Part shown: in pieces, positions 3,428 to 56,582 of the stretch
How the letters are laid out: every line of letters begins with the position of its first letter
Position numbering within the stretch: position 1 is the first letter of the stretch
From: Salinicola endophyticus
GTDB lineage: Bacteria; Pseudomonadota; Gammaproteobacteria; Pseudomonadales; Halomonadaceae
DNA: 64,000 nucleotides
Assembly (NCBI RefSeq): GCF_040536835.1
Contig: NZ_CP159578.1
Coordinates: 310,001-374,000, forward strand
Direction of reading: 5' to 3'
Notes under the pieces: generated by a model
Database searches by the model: none
What the model was told of the DNA's origin: nothing
The model's input: only the letters and a program-made list of their open reading frames with translations
Position numbers and translations under genes: made by a program

Positions 3428-3553
3428 TAGTGACGGCGGCGAGCCTGGCTCGACGCCACACGCCGAAGCGCGCTTCGGCAATCATCGGGAGACTGCAAAT
3501 ATGCGTGGTCTCCGACATTCATCACTCAAGCATATTGCTTAGGAGAGTGTTTC

Positions 3554-3823
3554 ATGGCACTGACTGCCGAAAAGAAAGCCGAAATCGTCAAAGAGTTCGG
3601 TCAGGGCGAGAACGACACCGGTTCCCCTGAAGTGCAGGTTGCCCTGCTGAGCGCCAACATCGATGGCCTGCAGAGCCACTTCAAGGATCACAAGCAGGAT
3701 CACCACTCCCGTCGTGGTCTGATCCGCATGGTCAACCAGCGCCGCAAGCTGCTGGACTACCTCAAGGGTAAAGACTTCGACCGCTATCAGTCGCTGATCA
3801 AGAAGCTCGGTCTGCGTCGCTGA
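3554..3823 (+). CDS. rpsO: 30S ribosomal protein S15
   Basis: S15 binds the central domain of 16S rRNA early in 30S assembly. The 89-residue product has the conserved GSPEVQ and [11 protein letters not shown] segments. AGGAGAG stands just ahead of the ATG. It is followed by a strong terminator, so rpsO is separated from pnp. In E. coli S15 represses its own mRNA; no clear equivalent was identified here. Confidence 0.98.
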
Positions 3824-28011: not shown

Positions 28012-30900
<2,889 letters not shown>

Positions 30901-33389: not shown

Positions 33390-33402
33390 GTGTCGCCAGC
33401 TA

Positions 33403-33486
<84 letters not shown>

Positions 33487-33571
33487 GATTCAGTAGTATC
33501 GCTGCGCTGTTGGCAGCAAGAAGTGGTAGTAAGGCCGGTCTGCTTCGGCAAATCGGAGTCAGAGCGGGTAG

Positions 33572-33645
<74 letters not shown>

Positions 33646-33668
33646 GTTCGAGGTTGTGGTGGTGTAGT

Positions 33669-33743
33669 GCTCATGTAGCTCAGGGGTAGAGCACACCCTT
33701 GGTAAGGGTGAGGTCGACGGTTCAAATCCGTCCATGAGCTCCA
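33669..33743 (+). tRNA. tRNA-Thr (anticodon GGT)
   Basis: A 75-base cloverleaf with acceptor GCTCATG/CATGAGC, anticodon loop TTGGTAA and an encoded CCA. In E. coli and Pseudomonas tufB follows this tRNA; it does not here. Confidence 0.96.
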
Positions 33744-33769
33744 TTGCTCGATGTCGAACGCTGTGAAAG

Positions 33770-33792
33770 GCGAGCTGAAGGCTCGCTTTTTT
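33770..33792 (+). terminator. Terminator after tRNA-Thr
   Basis: GCGAGC and GCTCGC pair around TGAAG and are followed by six Ts. Confidence 0.82.
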
Positions 33793-33819
33793 GGTGGCGA
33801 GAGAAAAAGATCCCAAGGG

Positions 33820-33849
33820 TTGCTTTTGCCCTCCTTTTTTCGCTATCAT
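33820..33849 (+). promoter_or_regulatory. Candidate promoter of tRNA-Trp-secE-nusG
   Basis: TTGCTT-N18-TATCAT, about 44 bases before tRNA-Trp. Confidence 0.5.
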
Positions 33850-33892
33850 AGCGCCCTCCAAATTTCCGGGTGCTTCTCGGATGTTTTGATAC

Positions 33893-33968
<76 letters not shown>

Positions 33969-34040
33969 GTCTTCCCCAGGCTGGCTCATATTTGATACCT
34001 TGTCATGTTCGGTTATCGCGCCTTGAGTTGAGGAGTTTTC

Positions 34041-50646: not shown

Positions 50647-50675
50647 TTGACACTCAAATGGGCCTCCCCTATAAT
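50647..50675 (+). promoter_or_regulatory. S10 operon promoter
   Basis: Perfect consensus TTGACA-N17-TATAAT, followed by a G+C-rich discriminator (GCGCG). The leader to the rpsJ ATG is only about 57 bases, with a small GACGGC-TCGC-GCCGTC hairpin. Confidence 0.93.
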
Positions 50676-50739: not shown

Positions 50740-51051
50740 ATGCAGAACCAAAAGATTCGCATCCGGCTGAAAGCGTTTGACCATCGCCTGATCGATCAGT
50801 CGGCCCAGGAGATCGTGGACACTGCCAAGCGCACTGGCGCTCAGGTGCGTGGTCCGATCCCGCTGCCGACCAATCGCGAGCGTTACACCATCCTGATCTC
50901 ACCGCACGTCAACAAGGACGCGCGCGACCAGTATGAGATTCGCACGCACAAGCGCGTTCTCGACATTGTCGAGCCGACGGAGAAGACCGTTGACGCGCTG
51001 ATGAAGCTCGACCTCGCCGCCGGCGTGGACGTGCAGATCAAACTCGACTAA
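50740..51051 (+). CDS. rpsJ: 30S ribosomal protein S10
   Basis: S10 (NusE) acts in the 30S head and, with NusB, in antitermination at boxA sites such as those before 16S and 23S in this window. The 103-residue product has [15 protein letters not shown] and the typical [21 protein letters not shown] loop. It is followed by an unusually long 135-base gap. Confidence 0.98.
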
Positions 51052-51186
51052 CCAACACTAGACACTAGCGGGAGCTGAGTTCGCAGCGACCGCCGCGTCG
51101 TGAGACGCCACACAATGTGCTAGTGGAATGCTCTGGAAAGGGCAGCCATAGCGGGTGATAGCCCCGTACACTATAGGAGACTGAAC
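51052..51186 (+). promoter_or_regulatory. rplC leader with a 23S rRNA-like element
   Basis: The rpsJ-rplC gap contains a near copy of 23S domain I. Bases 51133-51168 match 28311-28346 of the 23S gene without gaps: CTGGAAAG, then four bases of which one is the same, then 24 identical bases from GCCATAGCGG to AGCCCCGTA. The stem below the TGGAAA loop is TGCTC/GGGCA here, different from 23S but still paired. CACTAGC (51063-51069) can pair with GCTAGTG (51119-51125), and GCGTC-GTGA-GACGC forms another hairpin. L4, encoded just downstream, binds this part of 23S and controls the S10 operon in E. coli, so an rRNA-mimic feedback element is likely. Confidence 0.75.
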
Positions 51187-51825
51187 ATGACTATCGGTTT
51201 GGTCGGTAAAAAGGCGGGCATGACCCGTGTTTTCACCGAAGATGGCGCATCCGTGCCCGTAACCGTGATCGAGGTTGAGCCCAACCGTATCGCTGCTGTC
51301 AAGACCATCGAGTCCGACGGCTATCGTGCGGTGCAGGTCACAACCGGCTCCCGCAAAGCCAAGCACCTCACCAAGGCGATTGCTGGTCAATACGCCAAGG
51401 CCGGGGTCGAGGCTGGCCGTTCCCTGATGGAGTTTCGTCTCGCCGAGAGCGACGAAGCACCGGAAGTGGGCGGTTCCTTCACCGTATCCCTCTTCGAAGC
51501 TGGTCAGAAAGTCGATGTGACCGGTACCTCCAAGGGCAAGGGCTTCCAGGGCGCTGTCAAGCGCTGGAATTTCCGTACCCAGGACAACAGCCACGGTAAC
51601 TCGCTGTCTCACCGTGCGCCGGGTTCCATCGGTCAGTGCCAGACCCCGGGTCGCGTCTTCAAAGGTAAGAAGATGGCCGGCCAGATGGGCAACGAGCGCG
51701 TCACCGTCCAGAGCCTGGAAGTGGTGCGTGTCGATGCCGAGCGCAATCTGCTGTTGATCAAAGGCGCCGTGCCTGGTGCTCCGGGCTGCGATGTCGTCGT
51801 GCGCAGCGCCGTGAAAGCTCGCTGA
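51187..51825 (+). CDS. rplC: 50S ribosomal protein L3
   Basis: L3 is an early-assembly protein reaching the peptidyl-transferase centre. The 212-residue product has [20 protein letters not shown] and the long extension with [10 protein letters not shown] and [15 protein letters not shown]. The Gln methylated by PrmB in E. coli has its equivalent in this loop. Confidence 0.98.
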
Positions 51826-51839
51826 GGGGACTGAGACCG

Positions 51840-52445
51840 ATGAATCTGAATCTCGCAGGTGCCGCTGGCACCGTCGAAGTGTCCGCAGAGACCTTTGGCA
51901 AAGAATTCAACGAAGCGTTGGTGCACCAGGTCGTCACCGCCTATCTGGCGGCGGGCCGTCAGGGCACCCGTGCCCAGAAGAACCGCTCCGACGTGCGTGG
52001 CGGCGGCAAGAAGCCGTGGCGCCAGAAGGGCACCGGCCGCGCTCGCGCCGGCACCATCCGCTCGCCGCTGTGGCGTAGCGGCGGTGTGACCTTCGCTGCC
52101 CGTCCGCAGGACTACACGCAGAAGGTCAACCGCAAGATGTACCGTGCGGCGATGCGTTCGATCCTGTCCGAGCTGGTGCGTCAGGAGCGTCTGGTGCTGG
52201 TCAACGAGTTCGCCGTCGACGCGCCGAAGACCAAGCAGCTGGCCAGCAAGCTCAAGGAGCTGGATCTGGAGAAAGCGCTGATCGTCACCGAAGAGCTCGA
52301 CGAGAAGCTCTACCTGGCCGCGCGCAACATCCCCAACGTCGATGTCGTCGATGCTGCGGCCGCCGATCCGGTCAGCCTGATCGCCTTCGACAAGGTGCTG
52401 ATGACCGTCTCCGCTCTGCGTAAATTCGAGGAGAAGCTGGGATGA
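51840..52445 (+). CDS. rplD: 50S ribosomal protein L4
   Basis: L4 lines the exit tunnel and, in E. coli, represses transcription and translation of the S10 operon. The 201-residue product includes the tunnel loop [23 protein letters not shown]. It lies downstream of the 23S-like element in the rplC leader. Its end overlaps the rplW start by four bases. Confidence 0.98.
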
Positions 52446-56264: not shown

Positions 56265-56582
56265 ATGCACAAGATCAAACGTGACGACGAAGTCATCGTC
56301 ATCGCCGGCAAGGACAAGGGCAAGCGTGGCACGATCAAGCGCGTCCTCGAGAACGACCGTTATGTCGTCTCGGGCGTCAACATGATCAAGCGCCACACCA
56401 AGCCCAATCCGATGGCTGGCAACCCGGGGGGTATCGTCGAGCGTGAGGCTCCGATCCATGCGTCCAACGTGGCCATCTTCAACGCGGAGACCGGCAAGGC
56501 GGATCGCGTCGGCTTCCAAGTGCAGGAAGACGGTACCAAGGTACGTATCTACAAGTCGACGCAGAAGCAGATCGACGCCTAA
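56265..56582 (+). CDS. rplX: 50S ribosomal protein L24
   Basis: L24 starts 50S assembly by binding domain I of 23S rRNA. The 105-residue product has the KOW motif [20 protein letters not shown] and [19 protein letters not shown]. Confidence 0.97.

Follow-up and report, generated by a model that had tools for sequence, protein, structure and literature searches.

Why should an operon of ribosomal protein genes carry, between two of its genes, a near copy of a piece of 23S rRNA? The question is raised by a 64,000-nt stretch of Salinicola endophyticus (contig NZ_CP159578.1, positions 310,001 to 374,000; hereafter the window), in which the 135-base gap between rpsJ (S10) and rplC (L3) holds such an element, directly ahead of rplC and rplD (L4). 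An earlier note on this DNA, made from the sequence alone, proposed a decoy for L4, or for L24 or L3, that mimics domain I of 23S rRNA at a new position in the operon. We consider it likely that the element is a ribosomal leader to which excess L4 binds, repressing rplC-rplD, and that it stands in for the S10 leader of the Escherichia coli type.

A near copy of 23S rRNA helices 18 to 20

Window positions 51121-51171 align base for base with positions 28299-28349, a segment of a 23S gene of the same genome spanning helices 18 to 20 (H18-H20), with 42 of 51 bases identical. The recomputed alignment confirmed the 36-base ungapped match already described (51133-51168 against 28311-28346, 33 of 36 identical), including 24 identical bases in a row (51145-51168 = 28323-28346). 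The extent first given for the element, 51052-51186, needed narrowing: that span is the entire rpsJ-rplC gap, and the 23S-like part is 51121-51171. Direct mimicry of domain I is further supported by the Rfam model LSU_rRNA_bacteria, which aligned without gaps to 51120-51176 at model positions 329-385 (36.4 bits, E 2e-9 in a 674-base search). This score lies below the gathering score of 50, and the element is accordingly not a member of the 23S family itself (RF02541). Chance was rejected as the source of the 24-base run, since the longest other exact match to 23S in the rest of the window is 14 bases (both strands; rRNA operon and 33401-34000 excluded), and the longest matches in 30 first-order Markov sequences were of 12-17 bases. 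Across the whole genome, the gap matched itself and five further places, all of them 23S genes and all at the same segment.

Two further statements of the earlier note held up on comparison. The H19 stem, TGCTC/GGGCA, is unlike that of 23S and can still pair; and the bases flanking the match are nearer to E. coli 23S (TAGTGGAAG...GTACAC) than to the S. endophyticus 23S (TAGACGAAC...GTAGTC). We read the E. coli-like flanks as an order-wide constancy of the leader, rather than as a copy from an E. coli-like rRNA.

Structure and covariation

Covariation was assessed in 77 loci with 70 distinct sequences, which remained of 100 loci once 12 negatives had been removed, along with 11 loci that were near-duplicates or weak matches. 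Among the distinct sequences, standard pairs fill 99.1% of 815 cells, and two-sided changes occur at 7 of 12 pairs. Such changes were counted in 39 cells, against 5.3 ± 2.0 after shuffling (0 of 500 shuffles as high) and 0-9 when the partner was slid by 1-3 columns; with the weak matches retained, two of them spurious, the count was 44 against 5.6 ± 2.1. Both alignments were fitted to R1, a covariance model built from 34 sequences picked for regular spacing, and hence lean towards the structure. An unfitted alignment of 34 sequences gave 23 two-sided cells against 5.5 ± 1.7 shuffled.

The main source of this signal is H19, whose stem letters are rewritten while pairing is kept, and whose length varies freely among leaders. 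H18 contributes a weaker signal (99.0% of cells paired, 4 two-sided changes in the 70 distinct sequences), and the H20 pairs and the single C-G pair of CCATAG are invariant and neither support nor oppose structure. The leaders largely keep GCCAUAG, GGGU..AGCCCCGUA and the closing helix, and do not keep the H19 stem or either loop; the best-conserved stretch of the leader alignment (A1) corresponds to 51145-51168. Conserved secondary structure with covariation, as is characteristic of ribosomal leaders, is therefore present, and the element is a structure under selection, as the earlier note had suggested; a lack of covariation was looked for and did not occur. At two loci, L064 and L120, the H20 loop is replaced by a long insertion that can apparently form a hairpin of its own, with the rest of the mimic kept.

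Evolution relative to the genome's own 23S

The leader evolves independently of the rRNA. Its identity to the 23S of its own genome is 0.733, against 0.737 to the 23S of other genomes (n = 17), and 1607 of 2000 permutations were as high. This comparison began from 28 genomes with a 23S locus and a leader, 11 of which were dropped where the regular expression failed on one side, and includes one or two parses that are off by a base. The H18 pairs of 23S vary (GAC/GUC, GGA/UCC, GUA/UAC, GCG/CGC, GCA/UGC and GUG/CAC), unlike the 3' strand of leader H18, which is CAC in 97 of 113 cases.

These data bear on the suggestion that the gap simply holds a functionless 23S fragment, copied in as a pseudogene or by gene conversion. 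The 24 identical consecutive bases would suit such an origin, which we nevertheless rejected as hardly credible: the element stands at the same place in 33 of 43 families, covaries, keeps a fixed distance to the Shine-Dalgarno sequence and is no more like its own 23S than that of others. On the grounds of covariation, conserved place and no tracking of the genome's own 23S, the earlier view that this is not a fresh copy can be maintained.

Distribution of the leader

The order was sampled in 116 genomes, 110 of which gave an rplC match; upstream DNA was taken and the rpsJ-rplC gap cut out. A core motif (CCATAG-N-GGG, with variants) was present in 113 of the 133 order loci examined, and 90 of the 110 order genomes have it in the same position ahead of rplC. 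Run on 100 of these loci, R1 matched 88 at E < 0.001 (32 seeds and 56 non-seeds), the weakest matches being L113, L122 and L125 (family f15) together with L064 and L120.

A pattern scan over named genomes, which requires TGTAAC and so omits the TGGAAT form of S. endophyticus, found at least 120 stretches, 80 of them listed by name. Genera among the matches listed include Pseudomonas, Stutzerimonas, Marinobacter, Saccharophagus, Gilvimarinus, Halioglobus and others. Of the 120 pattern matches listed, 119 sit 14-39 bases before rplC, and the remaining contig stops before that gene. Together with the 90 of 110 order genomes, this gives the consistent placement upstream of ribosomal protein genes that is general to ribosomal leaders. 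The order is taken to include Pseudomonas, because its family f21 has as nearest named loci those of Pseudomonas, Serpens and Stutzerimonas, with about 88-94% identity across the locus. The element is thus present far beyond the family of the window, and absence in close relatives, for which we checked, did not occur. Two loci under other names, L202 and L209 (records Pantoea sp. Ap-967 and Alphaproteobacteria bacterium), carry the order's leader before rplC, and these titles look misassigned. The families without the mimic are f28, f42, f35, f38 and six that were sampled once (e.g. L077, L086, L097, L105 and L110); in some mimic-less loci the gap is very short, and visual inspection of L086, L088 and L092 (f42) reveals inverted repeats of another kind.

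No such leader was found outside the order, either with R1 or the core motif in class loci or with a strict pattern in 398 phylum genomes. The class sample comprised 129 loci, with five of 135 class genomes with rplC left out. R1 gave no match at E < 0.1 in 94 of these loci (best L304 at 0.14 and L291 at 0.2) or in the E. coli locus (L450, including 300 bases before rpsJ), and the other 35 loci were checked for the core motif only. Over all 129, that motif had one true match, L262, which itself belongs to the order; a regular-expression match in L375 was rejected as false, being unsupported by R1. The strict pattern, which bounds close copies only and misses order carriers such as G039, G049 and G084, was positive in 31 phylum genomes, 30 of them in the order, and the sole exception (G588, L419) is a 23S context rather than a leader. 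Among the 30 phylum loci returned, 27 have rplC, and L440 and L441, from order genomes, lie in a 23S context like L419.

Position at the ribosome binding site

The element has a fixed place at the ribosome binding site of rplC. In 92 of 113 gaps the Shine-Dalgarno sequence begins 2-4 bases past the 3' strand of H18; the start codon follows that strand by 12-28 bases (median 15). In the window, H18 can be extended by pairing UA 51121-51122 with UA 51172-51173. Transcription attenuation is not favoured, because the only terminator-like signal on the + strand between 50560 and 51260 precedes rpsJ. The minimum free energy fold pairs CACTAG near the start of the gap with CTAGTG, which overlaps the 5' strand of H18 (Table 1); in gaps of the same family, CACTAG and CTAGTGGAA are both present in 26 of 28 and both absent in the other two. 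In this family, according to the predicted fold, the free RNA may hold H18 open through the CACTAG pairing, a possible switch strand.

The width of the gap invites a different explanation, in which the element enhances rplC translation and restores initiation where rpsJ and rplC lie too far apart for coupling. The E. coli gap is 32 bases, against 135 here, and E. coli rpsJ and rplC are translationally coupled (PMC12548453). We regard an enhancer as very unlikely, as it leaves unexplained why the letters of 23S, rather than any structure, have been retained.

Proposed function

The element copies the shape and most of the letters of 23S H18-H20, in the domain I region presumably bound by L4 (and L24) during 50S assembly, and probably serves as a decoy through which surplus L4 can turn off the operon that encodes it. 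When in excess over new 23S rRNA, L4 would bind the mRNA element instead; the bound element would close H18 two to four bases before the rplC Shine-Dalgarno sequence and keep the 30S subunit off, with lower output of L3, L4 and the products of genes coupled downstream. Newly made 23S rRNA would then compete L4 away and release the mRNA. Judging from its title, the paper of Stelzl and Nierhaus (2001) placed the L24 and L4 sites on one short 23S fragment. We take this fragment to span approximately nt 295-343, that is, H18-H20, and if this extent is correct, the element is that very fragment.

In E. coli, L4 represses the S10 operon from a leader 5' of rpsJ, and in competition for L4 the 23S fragment bound by this protein prevails over that leader (PMC10931766). 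Domain I of 23S competes for L4 in vitro (PMC7186457) and is the site of initial L4 binding (PMC2672003). Owing to this precedent, the domain I competition and the shared L24/L4 fragment, L4 is the most likely ligand, and we infer that it represses, probably by steric block. According to a review of 2024, conservation of the E. coli-like L4 site does not extend to Pseudomonas (PMC10931766). The earlier note had also allowed for L3, which we set aside as unlikely, as L3 binds the 3' end of 23S (PMC2672003).

The main rival retains the leader and changes the sensor to L24, encoded further down the cluster by a putative rplX (56265-56582), or to L4 and L24 together. L24 is an assembly initiator that binds near the 5' end of 23S (PMC2672003), and the Stelzl and Nierhaus 2001 title places it on one short fragment with L4. 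Its assignment as the sensor nonetheless appears unlikely: L24 is unreported as a leader ligand of the S10 operon in the literature searched, L4 is the established regulator in E. coli (PMC10931766), and rplD is two genes away, with rplX much further. It is less probable still that the element binds a factor from outside the operon, such as an assembly helicase or nuclease recognising domain I, or serves as an RNA-processing or stability site. L4 does interact with RNase E and the DEAD-box helicase SrmB (PMC10931766), and according to Eckert and Weinberg an RNA that controls ribosomal genes may in some cases have no ribosomal protein as its ligand (PMC7247131); on the other hand, a location next to the ribosome binding site of rplC is more in keeping with control of translation, and every ligand known so far is the product of one of the genes under regulation (PMC7247131).

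Several observations weigh against regulation by L4 through a closed H18. The region mimicked is one that L24 binds as well. The constancy of CAC in the leader implies a constraint for which recognition by L4 offers no obvious reason. The core is absent from 20 of 110 order genomes; in 10 families no sampled genome has it (six of them are represented by one genome each), and the other core-less genomes include one of four in f24. In a ten-locus search with the Rfam 23S model to E 0.1 the leaders of L070, L043 and L119 were unlisted. In the unfitted alignment only 4 pairs show two-sided change, a number reached by 39 of 500 shuffles. RNAalifold pairs the 5' strand of H18 with CAU of CCAUAG instead, and H18 therefore rests on few compensatory changes and on the parallel with 23S. 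Nor is H18 on its own favoured thermodynamically: the median cost of folding it is 3.5 kcal/mol, and its P exceeds 0.5 in 7 of 81 loci (P 0.16 in the genome's own 23S segment). On formation of H18, pairing of the Shine-Dalgarno sequence was lower in 15 and higher in 21 of 80 loci. With no consistent direction in folding, sequestration of the Shine-Dalgarno sequence by H18, or a simple pairing switch, is unsupported, and a block by bound protein is therefore favoured over a base-pairing switch.

A broader scenario is possible, although doubtful: that regulation of the S10 operon has shifted, across the whole order with Pseudomonas in it, to a site within the operon. S10 (NusE) would thereby stand outside the feedback, and expression from rplC onward would be controlled through a transplanted 23S H18-H20, complete in structure, that senses an early 50S assembly module (L4 with L24), with some other gammaproteobacterial families using an unrelated hairpin at the same spot.

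A second hairpin before rplC in other families

An unrelated hairpin, found by its loop CAAUCGNA (variants CAACCG, CAACUG and CAAUUG), lies in the rpsJ-rplC gap of 17 of 129 class loci (L264, L266, L272, L278, L291, L294, L305, L307, L316, L317, L323, L324, L338, L346, L348, L353 and L383). It stands 21-67 bases before rplC in other gammaproteobacterial families and is a candidate leader, with two-sided changes at 7 of 8 pairs (28 cells against 6.9 shuffled). On 100 loci, a model of this hairpin (R2) recovered all 17 of its seed sequences; the only further matches were L310 (E 0.024) and L375 (0.79). No Rfam match was obtained in the seven of these loci searched, and no 23S or 16S counterpart of the hairpin was found in the rRNA operon of the window.

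Table 1 Features of the rpsJ-rplC locus and related sites, in window coordinates
Feature	Position	Strand	Evidence or remark
Consensus sigma-70 promoter TTGACA-17-TATAAT	50647..50675	+	12/12 hexamer positions; predicted, start site unmapped
rpsJ (S10)	50740..51051	+	Open reading frame (ORF) list; S10 tblastn matches in relatives
CACTAGACACTAG, family-specific strand	51056..51068	+	CACTAG 51056-51061 can pair with CTAGTG 51120-51125, alternative to H18
23S H18-H20 mimic, ribosomal leader element, model R1	51121..51171	+	R1 74.6 bits, this copy (L007) being itself among the R1 seeds; Rfam LSU E 2e-9
H18 5' strand GUG	51123..51125	+	Pairs with CAC 51169-51171
H19 hairpin TGCTC-TGGAAA-GGGCA	51129..51144	+	Two-sided changes at all 5 pairs
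Exact 24-base 23S copy: GCCATAG, H20 GGG..CCC, GTA	51145..51168	+	= 28323-28346
Shine-Dalgarno AGGAG of rplC	51175..51179	+	3 bases past H18 (sequence)
rplC (L3), first downstream gene	51187..51825	+	ORF; 78-100% identity matches within family
rplD (L4), proposed ligand gene, second downstream	51840..52445	+	ORF list; identity from gene order and sequence
23S H18-H20, mimicked site	28299..28349	+	Rfam 23S at 28012-30900; R1 56 bits
rplX (L24), putative	56265-56582		Same cluster; ORF; identity from order and sequence

Comparison with known systems

None of the ribosomal leaders of Rfam 15 was found in the gap, at the gathering score or at E 10, or to E 0.1 at L070, L043 and L119, which carry the same element. 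Elsewhere in the window, the S15 leader (RF00114) was found at 3485-3610 (56.1 bits). The element is undescribed in the literature searched, which took in part of the field, including the table of Eckert and Weinberg 2020, with key papers and supplements outside the search. A table from 2010, available in part, lists a gammaproteobacterial motif, Gamma-cis-1, the sequence of which was not compared with the element.

The closest relation is the E. coli S10 leader, through which L4 controls both transcription and translation; it serves the same operon and likely the same protein, and which is outcompeted by a 23S fragment with the L4 site (PMC10931766). It lies 5' of rpsJ and measures 172 nt (PMC7186457), unlike the Salinicola element, which lies between rpsJ and rplC with the S10 gene upstream; the new position in the operon claimed in the earlier note is thereby borne out, and the element is not a leader of the E. 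coli type. The promoter implies, as read from the sequence, a 5' untranslated region of ~60 bases before rpsJ, therefore too short for a 172-nt leader of that type. Moreover, the likeness of the E. coli leader to 23S is described as structural, whereas the Salinicola element is a near copy.

Leaders that mimic rRNA are already known for L1, S8 and L20, as covered in an excerpt of PMC10931766, from which the following two comparisons are also drawn. The L1 leader of rplK-rplA has an mRNA site very like its 23S site in sequence and structure, and differs from the Salinicola element in protein, operon and rRNA site. The S8 site of the spc operon, at the start of rplE, shares with it an internal operon position and a close likeness to rRNA, and differs in binding S8, in resembling 16S and in its location at rplE. 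A candidate L4 leader in Archaeoglobi likewise precedes rplC-rplD and is assigned to L4 (PMC7247131); it is archaeal, rated borderline and, in the excerpt of its source, unmarked for rRNA similarity, and is set apart from the Salinicola element by this description only.

As far as the literature searched shows, the element is new in its place, its taxon and the literalness with which it copies 23S; many leaders resemble rRNA only loosely. Its 70 distinct natural variants, free of the constraints of the ribosome, give a hint of the bases that a ribosomal protein may require, and the element is a candidate for the missing S10-operon control in a large, well-studied group that includes Pseudomonas.
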